20,299 bases of DNA from a virus, in the IMG/VR virus record IMGVR_UViG_3300033048_000120, positions 1 through 20,299 of that record; one strand, 5' to 3'. Shown piece by piece: positions 1-17,189 of the stretch (positions are counted from its first letter, which is position 1; the number at the start of each line of letters is the position of its first letter). The translations under genes were made by a program, and so were the position numbers. The notes beneath the pieces are model-generated. The model searched no databases. It was not told the DNA's origin and was given only the letters and a program-made list of their open reading frames with translations.

Positions 1-1
1 G

Positions 2-151
2 CTCGATTCACCTTTGAGTATAGATGCTTCAGAGGTAGAATTTATTTCATTTATGGGTAGAAAAAGGTTAACTTCTGACAACCTTGAGATATCATGGGCA
101 AATAATAATACTGGTAGAGTTTCAGTCCCTATAACGGAGATAAACAACTAA
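2..151 (+). CDS. 3' end of an upstream tail gene (partial)
   Basis: An open frame runs in from the left edge and reads 49 codons to a TAA at 149-151, ending ...VSVPITEINN. The stop overlaps the ATG of the next gene by one base (TAATG), which indicates translational coupling. The visible residues have no motif I can place. The position directly before a BR0599-family minor tail protein makes a tail or baseplate-type structural protein likely, but that comes from context only. The start lies outside the window. Confidence 0.7.
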   Translation, partial: LDSPLSIDASEVEFISFMGRKRLTSDNLEISWANNNTGRVSVPITEINN

Positions 152-978
152 TGGCTTTTGATACTATTGAAACATCCGAATTTTTTGAACCAATTGAGCT
201 GTATGAGTTCAAGCGTGGTGTTTTTAGTTGGTTTTTTACTTCCGCAGATGCTAACGTCTCCTTTGCAGGAAAAACGTATCTAGCTCAACCAATAAGTAGG
301 GGGCAGATTGTATCCACTCAGGATATAGGAAAAACAACCCTCAAGATTAAAGTGAGCAGACGAAACATATTTGCCATCCAATTTATTGAAGCATCACCGA
401 CTGACATAATAACCTTAACAATAACCAGAATACATGCTTCTGATCAAGACCCTGCGGTTACTTTTAAAGGCAGAGTGATTAACGTAGGTTTCTCAGAAAA
501 TTCTGCAACGATTACTTGTCAGCCGAACCAAAGTTCATTACGTAGACCTGGCCTAAGACGTTTATACCAAACGAGTTGTCCCCACGTATTATACGGCGGA
601 CCTTGCGGCGTTCTTAGATTGGATTTTGAAGTTAGCGCTACTCTTACAGGGGTATCAGGGTTAGTGTTAACCGCACCTGAGTTCATTCACTTGGGTGATG
701 GTGTCTTTAACGCAGATTGGTTTCTTGGTGGGTTTGTGGAAATCAACAACGGTGGTATAATAAGCACTAGGTTCATAACTGACCATGATAATAGTGGTGG
801 AACAATTACGTTGAACCTGACCCTTAGTAATGCTGTAGTTGGTTCAATCGTAACAGTGTTGCCTGGCTGTGATCACGCACCAGCTACCTGTAATAATAAG
901 TTTTCCAACATCGAAAGTTACGGGGGTTTCCCGTTCATACCACAAAAGAATCCTCAGAATGGCACCTCAATTTTTTAG
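151..978 (+). CDS. Minor tail protein, phage BR0599 family (DUF2163-like)
   Basis: This 275-residue protein matches the layout of the phage BR0599/DUF2163 family: an N-terminal beta-rich domain, then a C-terminal region ending in GGFPFIPQKNP. That ending is typical of the family and resembles the C-terminal domain of lambda gpL. Four cysteines stand in the expected places: C143 and C152 (SCPHVLYGGPC), C240 and C247 (GCDHAPATC). In lambda gpL the comparable cysteines bind an iron-sulfur cluster, so a metal cluster is plausible here. The protein should sit at the distal tail tip between tube and central tip protein. It starts at the ATG overlapping the previous stop and is followed 11 bases later by another tail gene. 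Confidence 0.85.
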   Translation: MAFDTIETSEFFEPIELYEFKRGVFSWFFTSADANVSFAGKTYLAQPISRGQIVSTQDIGKTTLKIKVSRRNIFAIQFIEASPTDIITLTITRIHASDQDPAVTFKGRVINVGFSENSATITCQPNQSSLRRPGLRRLYQTSCPHVLYGGPCGVLRLDFEVSATLTGVSGLVLTAPEFIHLGDGVFNADWFLGGFVEINNGGIISTRFITDHDNSGGTITLNLTLSNAVVGSIVTVLPGCDHAPATCNNKFSNIESYGGFPFIPQKNPQNGTSIF

Positions 979-989
979 GAGTAAACAAC

Positions 990-1214
990 ATGGGTTATAT
1001 AGTATATGCGGTAATAGTGGTAATATTGGCCTTTGCCTTACAACCGTCTCAGCCACAACCAAAGAAACCTTCACTTAGTGATCTGAACGTACCAACGGTT
1101 GGCCAAGGCAAACCTATCCCTAAAGTATTTGGTAGACGTATTGTTCAGAGCCCGACTATTGTATGGTTTGGGGATCTCGGCTATAATAAAATTAAAGCAA
1201 GCGGTGGCAAGTAG
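990..1214 (+). CDS. N-terminal segment of tail-tip protein, membrane-anchored small protein
   Basis: This 74-residue protein has a clear AGGAG ribosome binding site nine bases before its ATG. Residues 3-17 form one hydrophobic segment. The rest reads GKPIPKVFGRRIVQSPTIVWFGD, then ends KIKASGGK. That IPxVFGxRxxxSPxxVWFGD block is what normally opens the large central tail-tip proteins of many siphoviruses. The large protein two genes downstream lacks it and begins with GGKSGG, as if picking up where this one stops. I infer that this is the detached N-terminal part of the tip protein, perhaps with a targeting or assembly role through the hydrophobic segment. The stop TAG shares a base with the GTG start of the next gene. 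Confidence 0.7.
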   Translation: MGYIVYAVIVVILAFALQPSQPQPKKPSLSDLNVPTVGQGKPIPKVFGRRIVQSPTIVWFGDLGYNKIKASGGK

Positions 1215-1396
1215 TGATCATTACACGGACTGACTGTCACGAAGTCTTCTACTGCTCTAAAGGTATTAGAAGATTTTTTATTAAGTACGGGCTTGATTAT
1301 TCAGATTTCTTAAAAAATGGTATAGAGGCTGATAAGCTATCAGCCCTTAATGATTCGATGGCCGATAAGGTACTGGAGGCGAAACGTGGGCGGTAA
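1214..1396 (+). CDS. Small tail-module protein (CxxGxR-type, 60 aa)
   Basis: A 60-residue protein starts at a GTG that overlaps the previous TAG by one base. It has the pattern CSKGIRRFFIKYGLDYSDFLKNGIEADKL...DSMADKVLEAKR. This resembles a short family common in phage and prophage tail modules just before the tail-tip gene, with a Cys-x2-Gly-x-Arg motif, a YGLD(Y/W)xxFxxxGI block and a helical tail. Its molecular role is not known to me. Its 3' end overlaps the start of the tail-tip gene by 11 bases. No strong ribosome binding site is seen, so it probably depends on coupling from the gene before. Confidence 0.65.
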   Translation: MIITRTDCHEVFYCSKGIRRFFIKYGLDYSDFLKNGIEADKLSALNDSMADKVLEAKRGR

Positions 1397-3665
1397 AAGT
1401 GGTGGTTCTACAGTAGGTTATAGATACTTTATGGGCTTGCATATGGCAATCTGCCAAGGTCCAGTCACGTCCCTAAATCAAATATATGTCGGTGAAAGAT
1501 CTCTAGGCATTTCTCAACAATCTTCTAATACTACCATTGTTATTAATAAAACTGAACTCTTTGGCGGTGATAAAAAAGAAGGTGGTATCTACGGTAACCT
1601 AGACGTTGAATTTGGGGAGGGTACACAACTAGTTAATCCGTACCTATTTGAGCAATTCGGTTCTGATACCCCTGCTTTCCGTGGAACTACTTGTGTTGTG
1701 TTCAGGGTCAATAGGCTAGGGGGTTTCTTCTTTAAGAACTACTCTAGCAGCAGTGACGGTGGTTACGTTAGTGCTATGAGCCCTTACCCGAAGCCGTGGG
1801 CTTTCGATGTAACCGATATTCCTGGCGGATCATTTAACCAGACCAAACAGATTGTGGATGATGTTGCCAACGGTGGTCATATCATATTCGATTGTTTGAC
1901 TGATGTTGATTGGGGAGTGGGTGTCCCTGCTTCTGACTTAGATTCCACTTCTTTTACCTTGGTTACTGATACTATCTTTGATGAAGATTTTGGTCTCTCA
2001 ATGATCTACGCCCAGCAAAGCTCTATGGAAGATTTTATACAAGAGGTCTTGACCCATATTAATGCGGTGCTCTATACAGATCGTACTTCAAACAATTTTA
2101 CGCTTAAACTAATTAGAGATGACTTTGATGTAGGTACCTTGCAATTATTTGACGAGACCAATATAGCATCATTTATCAAGTTTGAGCGCCCTGCTTTCGC
2201 CGAGTTAGTCAATGAGATAACCTTGGTGTATCGTAAAAGAGGTGATTTTGAGGACTCCAGTATAACGGTACAAGACCTTGCATCAATACAAGCTCAAGGC
2301 GCAGTGGTATCCCAAACAGTTCAGTTTCCTGGCATTGATAATGATGATCTAGCGGCTAGGGTAGCTTCAAGGGAACTAAAACAAGCATCAACTCCATTGG
2401 CTAGGGTAAAGCTATTACTTAATCGCGAAGCATGGAATGTCAATCCTGGCGATGTGATCAAAGTTTCTTGGGGTGCATACGGTATTGAGCAAGTTGTTAT
2501 CCGTGTAGCAAATGTTGATTACGGAACATTCGAAAGTGGCCTAGTCAGAATAGATGGTTTGGAAGATATTTTTGGTTTACCTGATAACTCATACCTTGCC
2601 CCTGTCGATAGTGGATGGGCTGATGAAGTTGGTGATCCAGTAGCTGCACCAAGTACACTAGTTAAAGAATTACCTTTCTTCGTTATTGAGACTACTTTTG
2701 GGATTGAAGAAATTAATCTTCTTGTTGATGATTCCGCTATATTGCAATCAATAGCTGAGACACCTGCAGTAGCCACATTTAACTTTAAACTAAATACAAG
2801 AATAGGAGCAAACGATTACGCCCAAGTATCTGATGGCGAATTTGCTCCTACAGCACAATTAGTAGCTGCCTTAGATCAGACTACAAAAACTACCATTGCC
2901 ATTAAGAATTTCAAAGGTAGTGTAGGTCAAGTAGTAATAGGCGGTTATGCGTATCTCAATGGTGAGATACTAAGAGTTGACTCCGTGGACTTGCTCACGG
3001 GACTTATGGATGTCGGTCGGGGTTTCCTTGATTCATATCCGCGGAGTCACATTATTGATGATATTATTTACTTTGCAGATTCAAACAATGCCATCGATAT
3101 TGTTAATATCTATGAGCCTGCGGATGAAGTGGACGCTAAGGTTTTAACCCAAACTGGTAGTGGTACTTTGGACTTAGCAGATGCAGTAGAAGATACCATT
3201 ATCATGGTTGGTAGAAGAACGAAACCTTACCCAGCTGCACAAGTACAGTTAGGTGGATCGTTCTTCCCTGCGGCAGTAACATCCGTTCCAGTAAACGTTA
3301 CTTGGACTCATCAAGATAGAACACAGCAGTTAACTATTGGTGGCCAAGATTGGTATGAAATCAGTTTAGGATCTCCTGAGGCTGGTGTTTTATATACCGT
3401 TCGCTATTATAATAATGACACCCTTACTTTGCTTAATACAGATGCAGGAATCAGTGGATTAAGTTCCTCTTTCATCCCAGTAGGGGCAACAGGGTTAACT
3501 TTCAACATGAGGGTAGAAGTAGATGCAATAAGAGATGGTACGATAACCAATCTCGATACTTTTACCCATATATTTTTATATACTAAACCGATCGAATTCC
3601 GTACACTAGAGGATGCAGATAGCCGTACCCTAGAGAACGGTGACGTAAGAATTTTGGAGAGCTAA
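1386..3665 (+). CDS. Central tail-tip / host-specificity protein (gpJ-like)
   Basis: I place the start at GTG 1386 because TGGAGG sits six bases ahead (1374-1379) and because the conserved text begins right after it (VGGKSGGSTVGYRYFMGLHMAICQGP). The ATG at 1350 would add 12 residues read out of the overlapping small gene. The product is 759 residues, shorter than lambda gpJ. The MGLHMAICQGPVxxLxxIYVGE block is typical of siphovirus tail-tip proteins that form the central fibre hub and contact the host. The C-terminus holds short repeats (EFRTLEDADSRTLENGDVRILE), also seen at the ends of such proteins. It should act at the tail tip in adsorption and DNA delivery. The next gene starts immediately after the stop. 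Confidence 0.8.
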   Translation: MGGKSGGSTVGYRYFMGLHMAICQGPVTSLNQIYVGERSLGISQQSSNTTIVINKTELFGGDKKEGGIYGNLDVEFGEGTQLVNPYLFEQFGSDTPAFRGTTCVVFRVNRLGGFFFKNYSSSSDGGYVSAMSPYPKPWAFDVTDIPGGSFNQTKQIVDDVANGGHIIFDCLTDVDWGVGVPASDLDSTSFTLVTDTIFDEDFGLSMIYAQQSSMEDFIQEVLTHINAVLYTDRTSNNFTLKLIRDDFDVGTLQLFDETNIASFIKFERPAFAELVNEITLVYRKRGDFEDSSITVQDLASIQAQGAVVSQTVQFPGIDNDDLAARVASRELKQASTPLARVKLLLNREAWNVNPGDVIKVSWGAYGIEQVVIRVANVDYGTFESGLVRIDGLEDIFGLPDNSYLAPVDSGWADEVGDPVAAPSTLVKELPFFVIETTFGIEEINLLVDDSAILQSIAETPAVATFNFKLNTRIGANDYAQVSDGEFAPTAQLVAALDQTTKTTIAIKNFKGSVGQVVIGGYAYLNGEILRVDSVDLLTGLMDVGRGFLDSYPRSHIIDDIIYFADSNNAIDIVNIYEPADEVDAKVLTQTGSGTLDLADAVEDTIIMVGRRTKPYPAAQVQLGGSFFPAAVTSVPVNVTWTHQDRTQQLTIGGQDWYEISLGSPEAGVLYTVRYYNNDTLTLLNTDAGISGLSSSFIPVGATGLTFNMRVEVDAIRDGTITNLDTFTHIFLYTKPIEFRTLEDADSRTLENGDVRILES

Positions 3666-4109
3666 ATGGCTAATAAAACGTTAACCCAGATACTGGCTAG
3701 TAACCCAGTAACCGCAGCCCTCACAGGCGAAGAACCAATTGAGACTGTGGTTAGTTCTACTAGTGAAGCGGCAAAATTAAAGCAGTTAAGTTTTGCACCT
3801 ATAAACGCTATAGCTACTACTGGTTATACTCTTGATCTTGAAGACCAAGGTAGAATTATTGCTATGAGTAACGCCTCAGCTAATACCGTAACTATCCCAT
3901 TAAATGCTAGTGAGGCTTTCCCTATTGGAGCTACGTTAATAGTACGGCAGGTAGGGGCAGGTATTACTTCCATAGCAGCTATAGGGGGTGTCACTTTACA
4001 GATCAGGGCTACACTTACCCAAAACATAGCTGAGAAGTGGGGGCAAATAGTTCTGCACAAAGTAGCGGTTGATACTTGGCATACAGCAGGGGAGTACTTA
4101 TCAGCATGA
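3666..4109 (+). CDS. Small tail-fibre accessory / beta-structured virion protein
   Basis: This 147-residue protein starts directly after the tail-tip stop. Residues about 50-140 read as a beta-rich domain with the pattern GYTLDLEDQGRIIAMSNASANTVTIPLN...FPIGATLIVRQVGAG. The pattern recurs in phage tail-fibre, neck-fibre and decoration proteins. The first 45 residues look like a linker or attachment segment. By position it probably joins the fibre to the tip or decorates it. The exact role cannot be read from sequence. Its TGA overlaps the ATG of the following fibre gene (ATGA). Confidence 0.6.
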   Translation: MANKTLTQILASNPVTAALTGEEPIETVVSSTSEAAKLKQLSFAPINAIATTGYTLDLEDQGRIIAMSNASANTVTIPLNASEAFPIGATLIVRQVGAGITSIAAIGGVTLQIRATLTQNIAEKWGQIVLHKVAVDTWHTAGEYLSA

Positions 4110-5704
4110 TGATTGGTCCTTTACTAATGGGTATTACTTCGTCCGGTGGTGGGTTCGCTGGTTTTACAACTACTCCAAGCCCTATTTTTGTCGATGGGGA
4201 GTGGTGGTCTTTTACACAGACCTCTAGAGTTACCGCACCTTCAATAGGTATTCTAAGTAGAAAGAGTATCGATAACGGAGTTACTTGGGTTGAAGATAAT
4301 GAGCAGTTTCACACAGCCTTTATTACAGGTACCACTGATTTTGCAAACGGTATACTAGCGGGTGCTGCCGGTACTTTCGTAAACCATAAAGACCTAGCAA
4401 CTTCAGGTAATGATTGGATTTTTACTAATGTATCATCTCTTGGAGGTGGTTTTATAGGGGGAGGAATAAATCTGCTCCATACTGATTCTGATCAGGACAG
4501 GTTTATACTAAACAAAGCTGAAGGCCGTGATCTTTACACCTCGACAGATCTTGTTACCTACACCCCAGTTAACGGGATTGTAGAGAATGATCTCACTTTG
4601 AATGACCGCCTACAAAAAGCACATTGGATTGTCTATGCAGATGGTCAATACGTTGCCTATGGGGTAAAAGAAACAGGGAGTCCAACACCCCCGCTAAGCC
4701 CGGATGTATATGGTACTGCCTCATCGGCTGATCTCCTAACTTGGACGCAGGAAACAGTTGATGCTCCACAATTTTTTGATATAAGATATTTCGGTGGTGC
4801 GTTCTTAGCTATCGCTCTTGGCGGCGGTGGTACTGTTAAGACTGATATAGTGGAAGTATGGCGGAGCACAGACTTTATTAACTGGTTACCACAAACACTG
4901 CCAAATGTAGCGGCAGGGTCATCTTATGAGCAGGTGGTAATTCAAAACGGTATATACACCCTTGTCTCCAATTCCCAAGTTTTTGAGACTACCAACGGTA
5001 CTACCTTTACTGAGAGCACCTCAAGATTTACTCTAGACCCATTAATCAAAGGGAAGCAGCCTAGACTTGCTACGTTCACACCACCTGATAGGACACTACT
5101 TAGGTCGGGTTCCATTGACGAGCTAGGTGGTAAGCTGCTAGGTTGGACAGCATCCCTAGACGCTGTACCAACATTAAATTATAATACGACTAATCCTGCG
5201 GGGGCTACAATAGGTTTCTCCCGTAACACAACAAATGGTAGTACGGGTATAACTAGCAATGGTTTTGCCGTATTAAATATTAATAACGCTCGGGGTTTCT
5301 ACCTGCATAAGCTTGGGGTACGTTACTTTGAGTATACCATACTAGATGCTGATATTGGGGCGGATGTAGGTATGGATGCCCCCGCAGCACACTTTTTTAG
5401 TGGTCTTGGTATCACCTCTGTACAATTAACTACTAACGCGGTCTTAACTACCAGCGGTAACTTACCAGTTGTTTACACTATGGCAGTAGGTCAAGTTATA
5501 GGTTTTTTGGTTAACTTTATTACTGCTGAAATCAAGATATATGTGGACAATGTACTATTGGCCACAATACCAAACATAGAAACCTCAGTTCTATGGACGC
5601 AATTAGTGGATGCTGGAAGCGCCGAAATCAAAATGAATATCGGTCAAGACCCATTTATATATACACATGTAGGCTCATTAGCTTGGGCAGATGAATACGT
5701 GTAA
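4106..5704 (+). CDS. Tail fibre protein with beta-propeller-like repeats and SPRY/lectin-like C-terminus
   Basis: I choose ATG 4106 because it overlaps the previous stop as ATGA and has AGGGGAG shortly upstream. The TTG at 4076 lies inside the previous gene. The product is about 532 residues. The first two thirds hold repeated segments of the kind SxDxxTW (e.g. SIDNGVTWVED, SSADLLTWTQE, STDFINWLPQ), typical of sialidase/BNR-type beta-propeller folds. The C-terminal 180 residues have the look of a SPRY/concanavalin-like domain: NPAGATIGFSRNT, FEYTILDAD, VGQVIGFLVNF, then EIKIYVDNVLLATI. Both parts suggest receptor or glycan binding. This gene is a likely host-range determinant. Confidence 0.7.
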   Translation: MMIGPLLMGITSSGGGFAGFTTTPSPIFVDGEWWSFTQTSRVTAPSIGILSRKSIDNGVTWVEDNEQFHTAFITGTTDFANGILAGAAGTFVNHKDLATSGNDWIFTNVSSLGGGFIGGGINLLHTDSDQDRFILNKAEGRDLYTSTDLVTYTPVNGIVENDLTLNDRLQKAHWIVYADGQYVAYGVKETGSPTPPLSPDVYGTASSADLLTWTQETVDAPQFFDIRYFGGAFLAIALGGGGTVKTDIVEVWRSTDFINWLPQTLPNVAAGSSYEQVVIQNGIYTLVSNSQVFETTNGTTFTESTSRFTLDPLIKGKQPRLATFTPPDRTLLRSGSIDELGGKLLGWTASLDAVPTLNYNTTNPAGATIGFSRNTTNGSTGITSNGFAVLNINNARGFYLHKLGVRYFEYTILDADIGADVGMDAPAAHFFSGLGITSVQLTTNAVLTTSGNLPVVYTMAVGQVIGFLVNFITAEIKIYVDNVLLATIPNIETSVLWTQLVDAGSAEIKMNIGQDPFIYTHVGSLAWADEYV

Positions 5705-6272
5705 GTATGGTGATCTAAGAACGGGGGATATTATTCTATTCTCTGGTAGGGGTTTTATACCTCGGTTTATTCAATTGGTTACTTGGTCACGTTGGTCTCA
5801 TTGCGGTATTATCATAGCGGACGATCCTGATTATCCCTTCCCACTCGTTTACGAATCTACCCATGACGACTCATTAATTGGTCTAGACCTAAAAAGGCAT
5901 AACTCCGGTGTTCAGATCGTACCTTTTTCTAAGCGCCTTGAGATGTATGATGGTAATGTGGCTATTCGTAGAGTACAGACCCCTGACTATACCCATCGGG
6001 CTAAGCTCAGAGAGTATAGAACAGAAGTGGTAGGAAGACCTTTTGAGAAGTCTCGTAAACAGATAATGGCAGCAGCGCCCGTGTTCTGGTGGCTAAGGCA
6101 AGGAAAGGATTTATCTAGTATCTTCTGCAGTGAGCATGTAGCGGAGACTTTTATTGCTCTAGGCTGGTTAAGTAACTACGTACCAAGTAACTGGTATACC
6201 CCGAAGTATTTCGCTAAGCATTGGCGCTTCCGTAATGGGGTTAGATTCGGTCCAATAGAAATAATCAAATAA
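5691..6272 (+). CDS. Circularly permuted papain-like (YiiX/NlpC-P60 superfamily) hydrolase
   Basis: This 193-residue protein opens with GDLRTGDIILFSGRG and continues to a conserved His at residue 37 (SRWSHCGIII), with the candidate catalytic Cys at 146 (IFCSEHVAE). His before Cys is the reverse of classic NlpC/P60 order and matches the permuted YiiX/YaeF-type group. Members are thiol hydrolases or acyltransferases acting on peptides or lipids. The start overlaps the fibre gene by 14 bases, so the two are likely co-translated. It is the last gene before the terminator. A tail-associated or lysis-related hydrolase is plausible, but the substrate cannot be told. Confidence 0.7.
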   Translation: MNTCKYGDLRTGDIILFSGRGFIPRFIQLVTWSRWSHCGIIIADDPDYPFPLVYESTHDDSLIGLDLKRHNSGVQIVPFSKRLEMYDGNVAIRRVQTPDYTHRAKLREYRTEVVGRPFEKSRKQIMAAAPVFWWLRQGKDLSSIFCSEHVAETFIALGWLSNYVPSNWYTPKYFAKHWRFRNGVRFGPIEIIK

Positions 6273-10814: not shown

Positions 10815-11066
10815 TTAAATACACTCTACTACTTCGTATTTTTCTGGTTTAACGATAGCCAATAGCCTAGTTCGCTCGTTACGTATATCTATAAGTAATG
10901 GGTCGAAAGTTGTAATACTAGCTATATCCGCCTCATCTATAACACCTCTAAGTAACTGGCTTTCAAGGTCCATCTTAATCTCGTTTTCTCGTTGTCTCTC
11001 AAGTTGATTTAGACTACTGAATAAGCTTGTATCTTTAAAACTGTATACTGTATTTAATCTAAGCAT
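10815..11066 (-). CDS. 83-aa hypothetical protein
   Basis: A small, charged protein whose start overlaps the DpdA-like gene's stop as TAATG. Residues 20-55 are likely helical and rich in Glu, Arg and Leu; the C-terminal end is more beta-like (TRLLAIVKPEKYEVVECI). No motif I recognise. It is co-transcribed with the modification and replication genes around it, which does not fix a function. Confidence 0.6.
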   Translation of the reverse strand: MLRLNTVYSFKDTSLFSSLNQLERQRENEIKMDLESQLLRGVIDEADIASITTFDPLLIDIRNERTRLLAIVKPEKYEVVECI

Positions 11067-11983
11067 TAGAATAATCCGAATTGAGTTTGTTTAAAGATTG
11101 CATCCTCAAATGGTGGATACTCTTTGTGCATTTCTACATATGCATTTATGTTATAAATCCAGCGGGAAAGGTATTTGTGCATTAGGTCTTCAGTGGTGTA
11201 ACCTTGGGAAGTTAAACGTTTATCAATCGCTTCCCTTTGAAGATCTGTAAATGTATCGTAATGCTGGTTCTGAACCTTTCGGTTTGGGCTCTCGGCAGAT
11301 ATGGCCATGGCCTTACCGTTAAATAGAATGGAACCGTTAGCCGCTACCTGAACCCATGAGGACGAATCAACGCTGAACCAAGGATACTTCTTCATTAGGA
11401 TTGGAGTAGTAACACCAAACGCGTGAACCTTGGTAATCGGCCTACCAGCCCCATCAGTTAAGTACTTCTCCCAGATTTCGTCGAGCCAGATAAGAAGATC
11501 TTTTGTGGATTGAGCTACCATTCCACCCAAGGTAATATAGGAATAATTGGCTGCATACAACTGGAGGTATCTAGGATCTTCCCCGTAATGGAAACAAGGT
11601 AGAGGCCGCACCCCTAACTTCTCCATTCTCATCTGGTTCTTATACGTTCCGAGATCGTCACCAATACTATCTAGTACAGAGGCCACAACTGCATCGTCTT
11701 CTACCCGAATGATATCGGCGTTATCTTGTATATATCGGCAGTAGGCAGGTAGATCAATCTCTACCCCTTTTGACCAAGCCGAGAAGGCTCCTGAATCCAG
11801 AAATACCTTTGCTTCATCTCGGCGCATCTTATCTACGGCGGACTGTTTACATACATAATGGTATGATTCTAACATATGGGGGATACTGTCCCGTTGGGCT
11901 CTTTCGTTATCACTGAGGCGGCGGTAAAGCCTACCATGTAGATCGAAGTTAGAGGTATAAATACCGGCCATATAGATTTGCAT
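11066..11983 (-). CDS. dpdA: DpdA-like DNA-guanine transglycosylase (TGT superfamily)
   Basis: This 305-residue protein has the marks of phage DpdA proteins, relatives of tRNA-guanine transglycosylase. VFLDSGAFSAW (D63) matches the base-binding aspartate segment. LGGMV (152-156) and HAFGVTTP (187-194) match the glycine-rich substrate loops. SVDSSSW (D206) fits the position of the nucleophilic aspartate. DpdA proteins exchange guanine in DNA for a 7-deazaguanine such as preQ0. The preQ0 pathway genes lie just upstream in the same orientation, which strongly supports a DNA rather than tRNA target. The start overlaps the PP-loop gene's stop as TAATG. No zinc-site cysteine set like that of tRNA enzymes is seen. 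Confidence 0.85.
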   Translation of the reverse strand: MQIYMAGIYTSNFDLHGRLYRRLSDNERAQRDSIPHMLESYHYVCKQSAVDKMRRDEAKVFLDSGAFSAWSKGVEIDLPAYCRYIQDNADIIRVEDDAVVASVLDSIGDDLGTYKNQMRMEKLGVRPLPCFHYGEDPRYLQLYAANYSYITLGGMVAQSTKDLLIWLDEIWEKYLTDGAGRPITKVHAFGVTTPILMKKYPWFSVDSSSWVQVAANGSILFNGKAMAISAESPNRKVQNQHYDTFTDLQREAIDKRLTSQGYTTEDLMHKYLSRWIYNINAYVEMHKEYPPFEDAIFKQTQFGLF

Positions 11984-13035
11984 TAATCCTCACCGCCATA
12001 CAGGTCACAACTACCTTCAGCACAAGGACTTAGTCTTTTTTCGTGGGAAACCCTACTTTCCCAATACTCTTGGGGCTGCTCGAAAGCCTTGTCGTATATT
12101 TCTTTAAAGGTCAGCTTTATAGGACCAGTGTGGTACATTGCCTCTTCATTGAATTTCCTACCTTTGATAGGGATTTCAGGGTTAGTTACTTGCACCAACC
12201 ACTCGTCTGCTAAAGGTTTTTGTGTATGGCATAAGTAACTTAGTTGGTTCTCCGTTTTCTCGATACAGAACACACAGTTACCGCAGTGATCAGGTATTTC
12301 AAGATCAATACTTTGGGTACGCCACCAAGCCCGTATATCTTCTTTATTGAAATCAGAAATCTCAAAAAGAAATCTGTACCCTATCTGGTCGTTCCTAACA
12401 ACCTTACCTACGATTTTGTTAACTCGGTTATACCCCGACTCCCCTAAAGGATCTACCACATATCCTGATACATAGTTAAAAAGCTCTCCGATTGAATCGG
12501 CAAGTTTTATTGAGCAATTTTTATAGAATTCACCTTGATCCCTTTTTTCTATATGTAACCATTTAGTTAAGGTGGCTGATAACGTATGCCCCCATGATCT
12601 ACTAGCGTCTCTAGGTTCATCTCTATAACCTATCCAAGTCACATAATTACCTTTCCCGTAAGCATCATTACAGTACTTACGGTAGATTTGGGTCTTTAAC
12701 TGGTCGGTACAGAATTTCCCACCAGGATTAAAAGGCCTACCGTATTTAGTCATTAATTCACGGAAAGCAGTATAATCCCCAGTAATATTAGCTATATTCT
12801 CGACTACGTATTTAGCCCCGATACCTTCCTCTTGGGGCATGTGCATAGTCAAACAAACAATATCAATATCAAAATGTAATGCGGTAGCCTGCACAAAATC
12901 GTAAGTCCCTTTATGCTCAGCACCAGTATTACAAAAAATAAAATCTACGTTCTCTTTACCGAACACTTCAATTAGTTTATCTATCATGTAGTGAGACGTA
13001 CGTCCACCTGATATACTTGCTATTTGCTTCTTCAT
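11983..13035 (-). CDS. PP-loop ATPase, PAPS-reductase-like, coupled to dpdA
   Basis: A 350-residue protein of the CysH/PP-loop group. It has SGGRTS at residues 9-14 (the adenylation loop), a CNTGAEH segment near 35-41 and GYRDEPRDASR at 136-146. Cysteines at 109 (KFCTDQ) and 251, 254 and 257 (CGNCVFC) could hold a metal or iron-sulfur cluster, as in the related DndC. Such enzymes activate a carbonyl or transfer sulfur using ATP. It is not QueC, which is encoded separately. Its TAATG coupling to dpdA points to the same pathway: either elaborating the inserted base or aiding insertion. Simple sulfate assimilation seems unlikely in this context. Confidence 0.75.
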   Translation of the reverse strand: MKKQIASISGGRTSHYMIDKLIEVFGKENVDFIFCNTGAEHKGTYDFVQATALHFDIDIVCLTMHMPQEEGIGAKYVVENIANITGDYTAFRELMTKYGRPFNPGGKFCTDQLKTQIYRKYCNDAYGKGNYVTWIGYRDEPRDASRSWGHTLSATLTKWLHIEKRDQGEFYKNCSIKLADSIGELFNYVSGYVVDPLGESGYNRVNKIVGKVVRNDQIGYRFLFEISDFNKEDIRAWWRTQSIDLEIPDHCGNCVFCIEKTENQLSYLCHTQKPLADEWLVQVTNPEIPIKGRKFNEEAMYHTGPIKLTFKEIYDKAFEQPQEYWESRVSHEKRLSPCAEGSCDLYGGED

Positions 13036-13214
13036 TATAGTTGCCCGTTTGGTAATGGTTTAATGTTACTTTTACTTACCCAGTGCTTATATCCCTTTTC
13101 AGGATTATTTATCCAGATACGATCCTCGGTTAATTCATGGGCTGTTTCTGGTATGCAGATTCTACAGATTACATTATGATAAATCACTCTTTGCCCAATC
13201 ATATAAGTTGGCAT
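13035..13214 (-). CDS. 59-aa SH3-like small protein, first gene of the dpdA/polymerase operon
   Basis: A 59-codon frame starts at ATG 13214 with a strong AAGGAG ribosome binding site eight bases ahead. It ends with TAA overlapping the PP-loop gene's ATG (TAATG). The product begins MPTYMIGQRVIYHNVICRIC and has DRIWINN, then HWVSKSNIKPLPNGQL. This GQRVIYxxxxCxI...DRIWI...HWVxxxxIKPLPxGQL texture is beta-rich and recurs in short phage proteins of SH3-like fold. Function is unknown. It lies 30-odd bases downstream of the predicted transcript start, making it the first gene of the transcript. Confidence 0.75.
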   Translation of the reverse strand: MPTYMIGQRVIYHNVICRICIPETAHELTEDRIWINNPEKGYKHWVSKSNIKPLPNGQL

Positions 13215-13239
13215 GATCTTTTTCTCCTTAATAATAAAA

Positions 13240-13271
13240 ACCCTATACCAATAATTATACCAGTATAGGGT
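13240..13271 (-). terminator. Intrinsic terminator after folE
   Basis: A perfect 9-bp stem (ACCCTATAC / GTATAGGGT, 13240-13248 and 13263-13271) with a 14-base loop lies shortly after the folE stop. On the minus strand it leads into TTTTTATTATT. This should end the queE-folE transcript. The loop contains the -10 box of the next promoter. Confidence 0.85.
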
Positions 13272-13281
13272 GATTAATCAA
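13254..13281 (-). promoter_or_regulatory. Extended -10 promoter inside the folE terminator loop
   Basis: On the minus strand, TTGATT (13276-13281) and TATAAT (13254-13259) are spaced 16 bases apart, and TGG precedes TATAAT to give an extended -10 (TGnTATAAT). The predicted start, near 13247, lies past the loop, so the new transcript lacks the first stem arm and cannot form the terminator. It should drive the operon from the 59-aa gene through the polymerase and HNH genes. Confidence 0.65.
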
Positions 13282-13294
13282 GAGTACTTCATCA

Positions 13295-13894
13295 TTAAAG
13301 ACTAGGAGGCAAGCTATTAACTAAGGACATAAATTCAGCCCTAGTCTCGGGTTGCTCTTTCATTACCCCTCGTAACGCACTGGTAATAGTAAAAGAACCC
13401 TGCTTCGCAATACCCCTTGATTCACAGCACATATGGCGGGCTTTAACCACAACACCTACACCAAGGGAACCAATCGCTTCATCCATAAAAGCTTCCGCTA
13501 TTTGATTAGTGATTCGTTCCTGTACTTGTAGTCTACGGCAGAAGATTTCGGCTATACGACTAAACTTACTTAACCCTAGAATTTTCTTGTTAGGGATATA
13601 AGCAATAGTTATAGTACCAAAGAAAGGGGCAAAATGATGTTCACATTGGCTATAGAAAGGTATATCCCTAACTATAACCATTTCATCGCACCCATCCGCA
13701 CCATCTTCAAATAACTTGATAATATCAGCAGGTGATACGTTATAGCCCGAGGTCCAGTGTTCAACAGCTTTGGCGAAACGCATAGGTGTTTCTTGAATTC
13801 CAGGCCGTAGATCTTTATAATCAGGTACTTTTTCAATGATTTTTAGAATCCTACCAAAATTAGCAGCAATCGCTTCTCTCTCAAACTGCTTCAT
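13295..13894 (-). CDS. folE: GTP cyclohydrolase I (FolE), first step to preQ0
   Basis: This 199-residue protein has all the type I GTP cyclohydrolase marks. QCEHHFAPFFG carries C84 and H87, and ARHMCCESRG (about 152-161) carries the third zinc cysteine and active-site histidine. GLSKFSRI (107-114) and LQVQERITNQIA (122-133) are also diagnostic. It converts GTP to dihydroneopterin triphosphate, the substrate of QueD. Length is near the bacterial norm of about 220. It is the last gene of the modification operon, two bases after the queD end, and is followed by a terminator. The four-gene set makes preQ0 supply, rather than folate, the likely purpose. Confidence 0.95.
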   Translation of the reverse strand: MKQFEREAIAANFGRILKIIEKVPDYKDLRPGIQETPMRFAKAVEHWTSGYNVSPADIIKLFEDGADGCDEMVIVRDIPFYSQCEHHFAPFFGTITIAYIPNKKILGLSKFSRIAEIFCRRLQVQERITNQIAEAFMDEAIGSLGVGVVVKARHMCCESRGIAKQGSFTITSALRGVMKEQPETRAEFMSLVNSLPPSL

Positions 13895-13896
13895 AC

Positions 13897-14112
13897 CTAA
13901 TCCTTACTATACGTAGCGGAACATTTACGGGTTTCGTCAATGGTACAAGAGATCAAAGTACAATCTATTTTAGCTTCTTTAAATAAATAAGGAGCAACCA
14001 TTTCAACTAAGAAACCAGCCATGTTTTCAGCCGTGGGGTTAAAGGGTACTTTGACTACTGTTTTATCTATATCATAAATATAGGCAAACATTGCCAGTTC
14101 TCTTCTAACCAT
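13897..14112 (-). CDS. queD: QueD, C-terminal part (separated by frameshift)
   Basis: A 71-codon frame whose residues from about 8 on continue QueD: VVKVPFNPTAENMAGFL (the conserved PTAEN block) and CTIDETRKCSATY (the ExT segment near the C-terminus). The first residues, MVRREL, are an out-of-frame reading of the end of the N-terminal part. An in-frame TGA lies directly before its ATG. No convincing ribosome binding site is seen, so independent translation is doubtful unless ribosomes restart after the nearby stop. Alone it lacks the metal site. Confidence 0.75.
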   Translation of the reverse strand: MVRRELAMFAYIYDIDKTVVKVPFNPTAENMAGFLVEMVAPYLFKEAKIDCTLISCTIDETRKCSATYSKD

Positions 14113-14309
14113 TCACAAAGGATTGATTTGATTACTGAAAAATCTAAAACGCGACCAACATCATCTGTATTTTCAAAACCTTCAGATGCTCGGATATCAA
14201 AGTGAACACGGTAGTTATGACCGTGAAGATTTTCGCATTTTCCGCCTTGCCCATGAACTCTGTGGCCTGCACAGAAATCATGGTAGCGGGTTGCTGTAAC
14301 TGTTCCCAT
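14067..14309 (-). CDS. queD: QueD (6-carboxytetrahydropterin synthase), N-terminal part; reading frame broken
   Basis: The start is ATG 14309, overlapping the queC stop as TAATG with GGAG nine bases ahead; a TTG at 14336 lies inside queC. The frame shows the QueD metal histidines and catalytic cysteine (CAGHRVHG, GGKCENLHGHNY), then VLDFSVIKS and WLEENW. After ENW, where QueD normally has WDH with the catalytic Asp-His pair, it goes off-frame and stops at 14067. The remainder continues in another frame to 13897. Together the two frames span 413 bases, one short of 138 codons. QueD makes 6-carboxytetrahydropterin from dihydroneopterin triphosphate. Either this copy is inactive, split, or misread here. 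Confidence 0.8.
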   Translation of the reverse strand: MGTVTATRYHDFCAGHRVHGQGGKCENLHGHNYRVHFDIRASEGFENTDDVGRVLDFSVIKSILCEWLEENWQCLPIFMI

Positions 14310-14956
14310 TATTTGTTCTCCAAAAATTCGAGCCAACCTTTTGCTCTAAGTTCACAGGCTGGGCATTTACCACAACCTCTGCCCCACATCCATTTCACAT
14401 CACGTTTACCGTTATAGCAGGTATGTGAATGATCAATAACCGTATCCAAGAAACCAACTTCATCCGCTAGGGCAAAGGTTTGGGCTTTGGTAAGATGCAT
14501 CAAAGGCGTACGAATATTAATATTGGTTAGGTAACCAATGTTCAAAGTAGCCTGCAAGTGCTCAATAAAGATTTCTCTGCAGTCTGGGTAACCAGAATAA
14601 TCAGTTTCACAAACACCTGTAATAATGGTGCCTGCACCTACCTGCTGAGCATAAGCGTGGGCTGTTGTTAAAAACAAAGCATTACGATTAGGAACAAAAC
14701 TGGCTGGTAGATCTTTATTAAAAGGGTGAGCTTCTGTAACATCCCCATCGGTACCGATTAAGGCGCTATCCCCTAACTGAGCAAGTGCAGGTATGGTCAT
14801 TATAACTAAAGGTACTTTTACCATATCGCAAATGAGCTGGGCTTGGGTTAATTCGATGGAATGTTTTTGCCCGTAATCAAAAGAGATACAATAAACTTTA
14901 TCATATTCTTTTAAGGCTAGGCCTAGACAGGTAACTGAGTCTTGCCCGCCAGACAA
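14309..14956 (-). CDS. queC: QueC (7-cyano-7-deazaguanine synthase), abnormal N-terminus
   Basis: The body is clearly QueC: SGGQDSVTCLGLALKEYD (PP-loop), FDYGQKH, FVPNRNALFLT, ITGVCETDYSGYPDCR. At the C-terminus are zinc cysteines in HTCYNG and GRGCGKCPACELRAKG, with a short extra segment (KRDVKWMW) between them. It turns 7-carboxy-7-deazaguanine into preQ0 using ATP and ammonia. The only possible start in frame is TTG 14956, putting the PP-loop at residue 2 with no ribosome binding site. The codons before it read TVPV, the expected first beta strand, but are preceded by an in-frame TAA at 14969-14971. No amidotransferase domain is fused, which argues against archaeosine-type product formation. 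Confidence 0.85.
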   Translation of the reverse strand: MSGGQDSVTCLGLALKEYDKVYCISFDYGQKHSIELTQAQLICDMVKVPLVIMTIPALAQLGDSALIGTDGDVTEAHPFNKDLPASFVPNRNALFLTTAHAYAQQVGAGTIITGVCETDYSGYPDCREIFIEHLQATLNIGYLTNINIRTPLMHLTKAQTFALADEVGFLDTVIDHSHTCYNGKRDVKWMWGRGCGKCPACELRAKGWLEFLENK

Positions 14957-15141
14957 GACTGGAACTGTTTACGGGTTTTAAGGGATGGGTTTGAACCCAC
15001 GTGAATAATAGTATCGAAACGTTGATCTTTAACTTCTTTAAAATTTCTAGCATGGCAATATGTTATATCGGCTTTATCACAGCAATCAACATTAAAATGG
15101 ATACCATATGCAGAATGGGATAGAACAATTAAGGTTCGCAT
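14923..15141 (-). CDS. 72-codon ORF upstream of queC; separate gene or detached queC extension
   Basis: This ORF begins three bases after the queE stop, with M-RTLIVLSHSAYGIHFN, and runs 34 bases into queC in another frame. The first 58 residues look like natural protein with beta-alpha-beta character (LIVLSH, then DTIIHVGSN). The last 14 are an off-frame reading of the start of queC. Adding one base around 14966-14971 would join it to TVPVLSGGQDS and give a 277-residue fusion. I do not recognise the domain. It may be a small partner protein, a fused extension cut by a frameshift, or the product of a sequence error. Confidence 0.5.
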   Translation of the reverse strand: MRTLIVLSHSAYGIHFNVDCCDKADITYCHARNFKEVKDQRFDTIIHVGSNPSLKTRKQFQSCLAGKTQLPV

Positions 15142-15144
15142 AGG

Positions 15145-15915
15145 CTACTCTAAATTCAAAAGTTTATGGATTTGCAGCTGAATTGTATAGCCGTGCTGCA
15201 TACAGCTTTTTACAACGAAATCAAGGTTTGCTTGGTTATGGGACTCAACAAGACCATCTAGCTGCTCAGCCCAAACAGACTGCTCTTCTAAGGATCCTTC
15301 AATATCCTCATCATAGTATTCAGTCATATCCATCGGCTGCAAATAAACATCACCATCAAAGTCTTCAGGTGGGCGAGCCAACTGAGGAGTAGCTTGATGA
15401 TTCAAGGCGGTTAGGGGTAAGCCGTCATGCTCGTTTACTTCCTGCCAATTAGCCACATACTTGAACGCGGTTATATGTGGTAAAAGTTTGGGGTTAAGCT
15501 TGGTTGTTTTCGGGCTACAGATAATGGTAGGCCAGGTATCAAAATCACCTTGAGGAGCCATTACCCCGTTGGTTTCTATTTGAACTTCGAAGCCATGAAT
15601 ATTCAATACGTTACAAAGTTCAGATATATTCTGACGAAACGGTTCACCACCCGTAATAACGATTAATTTAGTAGTGGTATTACCATCCAGTTTATAATTA
15701 ATATTATTAACAATGGTACCCATTGCCATCGTTTCGGTACCCTTGGTATATTCCGTATCACAGCCAGGACATTGTAAGTTACAGCCCCCTAAACGCACGA
15801 ATACTGCGGGAACGCCAGTAAATGGACCTTCCCCTTGGATGGTATGAAATATCGAATGTATGAGGAGTGTATCACCATCAGATTTAACTCTTTTGGTAGG
15901 AATTTGGTTGTTCAT
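15145..15915 (-). CDS. queE: QueE (7-carboxy-7-deazaguanine synthase), radical SAM enzyme
   Basis: This 256-residue protein has the QueE opening HTIQGEGPFTGVPAVFVRLGGCN and a radical-SAM CxxxCxxC cluster motif at C45, C49 and C52 (CNLQCPGCD). ITGGEPF follows at about 87-93, then IETNG, and the family's C-terminal LQIHKLLNLE. It rearranges 6-carboxytetrahydropterin to 7-carboxy-7-deazaguanine using SAM. It is somewhat longer than typical QueE at the N-terminus and in an acidic loop around residues 195-225. It is the first gene of the modification operon, with AGGA seven bases before the ATG and two hairpins just upstream. No separate promoter is evident. Confidence 0.95.
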   Translation of the reverse strand: MNNQIPTKRVKSDGDTLLIHSIFHTIQGEGPFTGVPAVFVRLGGCNLQCPGCDTEYTKGTETMAMGTIVNNINYKLDGNTTTKLIVITGGEPFRQNISELCNVLNIHGFEVQIETNGVMAPQGDFDTWPTIICSPKTTKLNPKLLPHITAFKYVANWQEVNEHDGLPLTALNHQATPQLARPPEDFDGDVYLQPMDMTEYYDEDIEGSLEEQSVWAEQLDGLVESHNQANLDFVVKSCMQHGYTIQLQIHKLLNLE

Positions 15916-16019: not shown

Positions 16020-16313
16020 CTAGGCTGAGGCTTCTTTACCAGTACCAGCTAAACCGTTGTATTTTCTCCAACGACCATACTGAGTGGCTGCAGTGGCTGC
16101 ATTTAATTCTTTACCGGCGGCTGCTTCAAGAACTGCTTTACGACCTACTGGCTCTTTTAACTTGGCTGATAAATCATCGGCAATTGCCCAAACAATACCA
16201 GTTTTGGTACCTGCTTTAGGACGAGTGATGCCATTTGCTGAATCACGTTCTACTACTTCTTTTTTTGCTTTTACTGCTTTTGCTGGTGCTTTTTCTGCTG
16301 TTTTGTCGGTCAT
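16020..16313 (-). CDS. Small basic, probably DNA-binding protein (monocistronic)
   Basis: This 97-residue protein has a lysine/alanine-rich N-terminal tail (residues 3-21), like histone-type tails. A compact helical domain follows at 30-88: TRPKAGT...VWAIADDL...GRKAVLEAA...NAATAATQYGRWRKYNG. The same domain closes the 194-residue protein encoded just upstream. The domain looks like a helix-turn-helix type unit with a basic final helix, so DNA binding is a reasonable guess, not a known fact. AAGGA precedes the ATG. It has its own near-consensus promoter and terminator, which implies high, separate expression, as for a nucleoid-type or regulatory protein. Confidence 0.65.
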   Translation of the reverse strand: MTDKTAEKAPAKAVKAKKEVVERDSANGITRPKAGTKTGIVWAIADDLSAKLKEPVGRKAVLEAAAGKELNAATAATQYGRWRKYNGLAGTGKEASA

Positions 16314-16364
16314 GACGTTTTCCTTTTTCGTGGGTTAATAAACATTATTTTCTAATGAATTTGA

Positions 16365-16393
16365 ATTATCGGTGGCTTACGAGTTTAAGTCAA
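16365..16393 (-). promoter_or_regulatory. Near-consensus sigma70 promoter for the 97-aa gene
   Basis: On the minus strand, TTGACT (16388-16393) and GATAAT (16365-16370) are spaced exactly 17 bases apart, five of six matches in each box. It overlaps the stop codon of the preceding gene. The predicted start is about 45 bases before the ATG at 16313. It is the best promoter match I found in the window. Confidence 0.7.
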
Positions 16394-16974
16394 GAGGCTA
16401 ATAGCGCCTTCTTCCACTTACCGAATTGGGTGGTAGCAGTGGAGGAATTTACGCCGCCAAGAACACAGGCTTGGACTACTTCATCCCGCAGTTCTTTACT
16501 GGTAAGATCTTTATCATCTTGCTGATCATAATACCAGTCAGCCGCTTCCCAAACTCGGGCTGTCATCGTACCAGCTTTTGGCCTAGTAGGTATGGAACCT
16601 ACCTGTTTGGCCTTGGCCTCAGGTCTTTCTTTAACTGGGGTAAAATCTTGGTCTTTCAAGGGCTTACCTAGCTTTTTAACTAGTTCGCCGAGGGTTAATT
16701 TGGCCACCTCAAACTTATCAATACAAAGCTGAACCATTTCAATCGCCCGAGGGTAATCTCGGAATACCGCAACTGCGTTAGCCGCGTTATTATACAGCAT
16801 TTGCAGCTCTAATAAAGTGAATCTGGCGAGCTCTCTACCTGTATCACCACAAATATAAAACTCAGCTTTAGGGATCAAAATATCCGCCCAGTACTCACAA
16901 CATCTTACGGGCTTATCCCCTTCAACTACTTTAAGGATTTGCATTTTATTTATATCAATTAATACAGTTTTCAT
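16390..16974 (-). CDS. 194-aa protein with the shared TRPKAGT domain
   Basis: I choose ATG 16974, which overlaps the previous stop (ATGA) and has AGGA eight bases ahead; an upstream TTG is less likely. Residues 1-100 are a beta-then-helix region with no recognised motif (MKTVLIDINKMQILKVVEGD...). A linker follows, then residues 130-190 repeat the domain of the 97-aa protein: TRPKAGT, VWEAADW, NSSTATTQFGKWKKA. The duplication implies a common ancestor and perhaps the same binding target, with this protein carrying an extra sensing or interaction part. Function is unknown. It is the last gene of a three-gene unit. Confidence 0.65.
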   Translation of the reverse strand: MKTVLIDINKMQILKVVEGDKPVRCCEYWADILIPKAEFYICGDTGRELARFTLLELQMLYNNAANAVAVFRDYPRAIEMVQLCIDKFEVAKLTLGELVKKLGKPLKDQDFTPVKERPEAKAKQVGSIPTRPKAGTMTARVWEAADWYYDQQDDKDLTSKELRDEVVQACVLGGVNSSTATTQFGKWKKALLAS

Positions 16975-17189
16975 TTTGGTGTTCCTGTGAAACAAACTTC
17001 TAGGTTATGGGCGCTGAATATTGTGGTAAGAATTGCTCTGTTACTTTTGGTATCGCAAATAAGCTGCGGGTTAGGAAAATAAGCTACACAATGGAAATAC
17101 ATCATCTCCATTGCTGGGCTTTGGTTGTGCACCAAGCAAAACGTTTTGCGCTTGCTGTACCCTGAGCTGTCGATATAGATGGTCTCCAT
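16971..17189 (-). CDS. 72-aa hypothetical protein
   Basis: A short protein with a strong AGGGGA ribosome binding site before ATG 17189 and an ATGA overlap with the next gene. It holds several aromatic and histidine residues (CLVHNQSPAMEMMYFHCVAYFPNP) and four cysteines without regular spacing. No family is recognised. It is probably co-transcribed with the 56-aa and 194-aa genes on either side. Confidence 0.55.
   Translation of the reverse strand: METIYIDSSGYSKRKTFCLVHNQSPAMEMMYFHCVAYFPNPQLICDTKSNRAILTTIFSAHNLEVCFTGTPK

Follow-up and report, generated by a model that had tools for sequence, protein, structure and literature searches.

Can the 7-deazaguanine genes of an uncultured tailed phage supply and insert a modified base into its DNA, and which base would that be? 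The question is raised by the IMG/VR virus record IMGVR_UViG_3300033048_000120, a stretch of 20,299 bases (hereafter the window, meaning the whole stretch analyzed) that is classed as linear and probably a fragment. The original prediction described within it a preQ0-pathway plus DpdA locus, with queE, queC, queD and folE followed by a gene for a DpdA-like transglycosylase. This description is supported by gene content, synteny, the fold of a tRNA-guanine transglycosylase (TGT), and the 49-64% identity shared with known phage DpdA proteins, but the pathway is not intact as sequenced. Overall, we consider it likely that the locus is a 7-deazaguanine DNA-modification module of the type known from Escherichia phage CAjan, belonging to a siphophage related to Shewanella phage S0112 and giving dPreQ0.

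Sequences of all five genes are located in the span 11066-15915 with strong family matches in Pfam, PHROG, and NCBIfam (Table 1), and their conserved set and order are far beyond chance. Tail genes occupy the plus strand of the window (about 1-6272). On the minus strand, the 7-deazaguanine genes are accompanied by those for DNA polymerase A and a clamp-like protein as well as by a helicase and a nuclease-like gene. This order and these strands are those of S0112 and, in part, of Pseudomonas phage PSASB_03, a Stenotrophomonas phage, and CAjan, with all four keeping the order queE/queC/queD/folE/dpdA. On the DNA level, no near match to the window was found among 50,697 phage records.

The 305-amino acid (aa) DpdA shares 79% identity with its best viral relative (locus L017), 64% with the S0112 protein and 49% with that of CAjan, the similarity to the latter two spanning the whole length. 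A total of 80 viral relatives were found, and most of these dpdA loci have queE, queC, queD, and folE alongside. No Pfam model reached DpdA, a PDB sequence search with the protein alone gave no match, and profile searches returned weak matches only, for which reason a structure model was used. The AlphaFold model, built from an alignment of 47 relatives (mean pLDDT 93.6), retrieved tRNA-guanine transglycosylases as all 50 listed PDB structure matches (best E 2.8e-6, probability 1.0, TM-score ~0.55). A fold outside the TGT superfamily had been named as grounds for abandoning the DpdA assignment, which thus stands. Furthermore, the DpdA profile gave a weak alignment (E 0.52) with 7ui4, a DNA-guanine transglycosylase of solved structure, spanning LGGMV and VDSSS. 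Two residues, D63 (in LDSGAF) and D206 (in VDSSS, within the weak 7ui4 match), are invariant in the 47 aligned sequences and are taken here as putative counterparts of the two catalytic aspartates of TGT. The TGT fold, as well as the frequent annotation of such proteins as queuine tRNA-ribosyltransferase, would also suit an enzyme acting on tRNA instead of DNA, namely a TGT raising host queuosine. We regard this as very unlikely in view of the 49% full-length identity to the CAjan DpdA, since deletion of dpdA in CAjan strips dPreQ0 from the DNA, and of the position of phage DpdA proteins outside the TGT protein clusters (PMC6884629).

With respect to the base, no separate QueF was detected in the window or in nine related records, in which QueF matches are single and weak per record; the one match of the window lies inside folE, which shares the T-fold, and was rejected. 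Likewise, none of these records, the complete S0112 included, has a class-II amidotransferase domain (GATase_7), so that both absences noted in the original prediction are supported, for the relatives as well. Because of these absences, and with regard to the likeness to CAjan, dPreQ0 is our best prediction. In CAjan, dPreQ0 is found on ~32% of G, and deletion of dpdA abolishes dPreQ0 together with restriction resistance (PMC6884629). In the predicted route, FolE would open the path from GTP, QueD and QueE would lead to 7-carboxy-7-deazaguanine, QueC would convert the latter into preQ0, and DpdA would swap guanine in the phage DNA for preQ0, generating dPreQ0 and putatively hindering restriction enzymes. 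Four points weigh against this assignment. In the contig, queC and queD are damaged; similar gene sets complemented by extra enzymes can give other bases (dADG, dG+, dPreQ1); the window is a 20-kb fragment, and further base-tailoring enzymes may be encoded elsewhere in the genome; and a coupled NinC-like gene next to dpdA could change the product.

Of the four pathway genes, only queE and folE are intact; queC lacks a start codon, and queD carries a frameshift with a loss of sequence. In the alignment, the queC frame contains SGGQDS, YxQxHxxE, VPxRN, YPDC, and the cysteine cluster. SGGxDS and the other four elements form the signature of canonical QueC, PF06508 cluster 1 (PMC13329287), and the whole set is present in the window, though in a frame lacking a start codon. 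There is no ATG, GTG, or TTG before the first beta strand, a TAA at 14971 closes the frame upstream, and the sole early start-like codon, TTG 14956, falls inside VLSGGQDS; the queC genes of relatives start several to ~20 residues ahead of VLSGG. The 5' end of queC overlaps a small open reading frame (ORF), ORF72, out of frame. A programmed frameshift from ORF72 into queC was considered and rejected, as inspection by eye revealed no slippery heptamer in the overlap and the queC frame contains stops upstream.

The neighboring queD is split into two parts in different frames, and the QueD proteins of S0112, PSASB_03, CAjan, and L017 all align to it in two different frames. DNA alignment with L017 and S0112 showed ~31 nucleotides to be absent at 14094/14082, removing a Trp-Asp-His segment that is present in every relative aligned. 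The Asp-His pair is part of the catalytic triad of the QueD family. A perfect small palindrome, GGCAATGTTTGCC, is positioned at 14083-14095, exactly on the lesion, where it could be the trace of a deletion or of a misassembly. Ten related full loci lack a match to canonical QueD (L018, L019, L037, L041, L042, L045, L049, L055, L086, and L089). In these, the queD slot is occupied by a divergent 6-PTPS-family protein, exemplified by that of L019 (L019:6469-6909; Pfam PTPS 5e-17), with HGY replacing HGH. Relatives thus normally keep the queD step, which makes its loss in the window more notable if real.

Are these lesions a property of the phage or of the contig? A coarse screen of the 80 related loci, detecting only stops within the best match and two-frame matches, flagged queC in 1 of 62 cases, queD in 0 of 64, queE in 0 of 71, folE in 3 of 76, and dpdA in 1 of 80. 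Every other window gene for which a comparison with S0112, CAjan, or L017 was made gave a match in one frame. Given this rarity of breaks and the single-frame state of the other genes, two lesions side by side are unusual. This argues for real lesions, with the phage having recently lost queC and queD function, the host queuosine pathway supplying preQ0 and DpdA still inserting it. There are phages that carry DpdA with a partial pathway or none at all, and the queuosine pathway is encoded by most hosts of full-pathway phages (PMC6884629). On the other hand, queE and folE would then be retained without clear use. Beyond the lesions, both damaged genes show the level of conservation seen for queE, folE, and the clamp gene, with no further stops, nonsynonymous divergence (dN) in the same range and synonymous divergence (dS) saturated. 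This disfavors a long decay and leaves the lesions as either recent or assembly errors. Each break is flanked by sequence of normal conservation, which fits assembly or sequencing errors in a phage whose preQ0 pathway is complete and ordinary, as do the intact queC and queD of the nearest relative, L017, and the retention of queD function in relatives, sometimes through the divergent PTPS-family protein; the placement of both breaks in adjoining genes, in a collection where breaks are rare, speaks against errors. Recent loss and assembly error both fit the data, and we hold them to be about even, an error having close to an even chance and a genuine loss being a serious possibility somewhat short of that. 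Host preQ0 would feed DpdA in the case of real lesions, and the phage would be self-supplied in the case of errors.

A further gene absent from the original gene list, which had named the five genes correctly but missed both lesions, encodes a 350-aa NinC/PAPS-reductase-like PP-loop protein directly before dpdA. TAATG overlaps couple ORF59 to ninC and ninC to dpdA. The protein shows 60% identity to NinC of Pseudoalteromonas phage BS5 and ~35% to lambda NinC, and the alignment revealed full-length similarity with a shared PP-loop SGGRTS and conserved Cys. The coupling to dpdA and the participation of other PP-loop enzymes (QueC, Gat-QueC) in the same pathway would be in line with a partnership in which the NinC-like protein alters the inserted base further, resulting in a final base other than dPreQ0. 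The contig L005 also has a NinC-like gene right before a distant DpdA-like gene; there (L005:5992-8309), the NinC-like protein is 521 aa in length, including a long extension at its C terminus, and its gene overlaps the singleton DpdA-like gene directly following it. However, NinC was found beside dpdA in none of the 80 related loci, and L005, whose DpdA belongs to a different subgroup, is the only one of 22 NinC loci (20 distinct places) with a DpdA-like neighbor. Moreover, none of five phages with the L005-type DpdA has an annotated NinC alongside. On these counts, NinC was rejected as a conserved partner of DpdA. The place before dpdA also differs among relatives, with a DUF3268-type gene in S0112, L017, L018, and L019 where the window has ninC. 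In the closest relatives, this zinc-finger-type gene lies shortly before dpdA (L002:3459-3911, L017:7008-7601, L019:7537-8004). The position is therefore probably a variable cargo slot with NinC as a passenger, and a base-altering partnership appears improbable. Still less credence is given to a combined scenario, in which queC and queD are truly lost, queE, folE, and dpdA are kept, and the NinC-like protein acts either on a 7-deazaguanine obtained from the host or on the base already inserted, so that the base in the DNA is not dPreQ0.

Of the two undamaged pathway genes, queE keeps CX3CX2C, as read from the sequence, and its product is 50% identical to that of S0112 and 55% to that of L017. 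In a contig shared by L014 and L021 (L014:4383-6125), folE lies within a 580-aa open frame and is split by ~280 extra residues, suggesting an intein or similar insertion. ORF72, located between queE and queC, had no match in phages or related records and was rejected as a queC-associated gene, since the relatives lack it. The consensus scan for regulatory sites found 13 terminator-like sites in the window vs 4.8 expected in shuffles. One of these hairpins (13271-13240) divides folE from ORF59-ninC-dpdA, in agreement with the predicted placement of dpdA in the next operon, and together with a second one at 15969-15947 it brackets queE to folE. Promoter-like matches were no commoner than in shuffles, so that the operon limits are regarded as tentative.

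Outside the locus, small ORFs of 74 and 60 aa precede a large tail protein in the tail-tip region (990-3665). A frameshift at the small tail-tip ORF 1214-1396 was rejected because S0112 and PSASB_03 are arranged alike, indicating the normal state. Two adjoining genes (97 and 201 aa) at 16020-16995 have a similar C-terminal stretch, and single relatives in other phages also match.

Table 1. Features of the 7-deazaguanine locus and its surroundings (window coordinates)
Feature	Coordinates	Strand	Match or remark
queE, 256 aa, radical-SAM 7-carboxy-7-deazaguanine synthase	15145..15915	-	PHROG QueE 1.9e-56
ORF72, small, located between queE and queC but not in the queC frame	14923..15141	-	phrog_35364 5.6e-6
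queC frame (14312-14968), preQ0 synthase	14309..14968	-	Pfam QueC 1.6e-70; NCBIfam TIGR00364 2e-70, above cut-off
queD, broken: 5' part 14309-14094, 3' part ~14082-13900, different frames	13897..14309	-	PHROG QueD 2.4e-23 and 7.7e-12, two pieces
folE, 199 aa, GTP cyclohydrolase I, intact frame	13295..13894	-	Pfam 1.5e-61; TIGR00063 3e-60, above cut-off
Terminator-like hairpin, 14 pairs, after folE	13240..13271	-	Consensus scan only; overlaps promoter-like TTGATT-16-TATAAT
ORF59, small gene preceding ninC	13035..13214	-	52% to L017:7642-7809, a relative preceding dpdA there
NinC/PAPS-reductase-like PP-loop protein, 350 aa	11983..13035	-	phrog_33262 4.9e-47
dpdA, 305 aa, predicted DNA guanine transglycosylase, phage full-pathway group	11066..11983	-	phrog_887 queuine tRNA-ribosyltransferase 1.1e-73

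Phage 7-deazaguanine modules of this type are already known, and the window adds a diverged member of the S0112/CAjan type. If the lesions are real, it would be an instance in nature of a phage moving from its own preQ0 production to preQ0 supplied by the host and would bear on the extent to which hosts feed phage DNA modification. In either case, the completeness of such a pathway should be verified at the level of reading frames before gene content is used to predict a base.

In comparison with known systems, the 350-aa gene resembles the lambda NinC family (phrog_424, phrog_33262) in encoding a full-length NinC-like PP-loop protein, whereas other ninC genes are mostly found in lambda-like settings and do not adjoin a full-pathway dpdA. 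The dG+ locus of Enterobacteria phage 9g likewise combines a preQ0 pathway with DpdA for DNA modification, but it includes Gat-QueC and makes dG+ (PMC6884629), unlike the window with its lack of a GATase_7 domain. Closer is the dPreQ0 locus of CAjan (KP064094, PMC6884629), with the five enzymes arranged as in the window ahead of clamp and polymerase, no amidotransferase, and identities of 49% for DpdA and 65-67% for QueC; it differs by a putative preQ0 transporter, none being seen in the window, by intact queC and queD genes and by a measured base. The preQ0 cluster of S0112 (MK675901, PMC6893657) has queC and queD intact and separated by a MazG gene, and dpdA is preceded by a DUF3268 gene, while the window features ORF72, damaged queC and queD genes, and the NinC-like gene in front of dpdA. 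At the same time, S0112 shares with the window the series queE-queC-queD-folE-dpdA, followed by a small membrane-protein gene, the clamp, and DNA polymerase A, with identities of 64% for DpdA and 66-68% for QueC.

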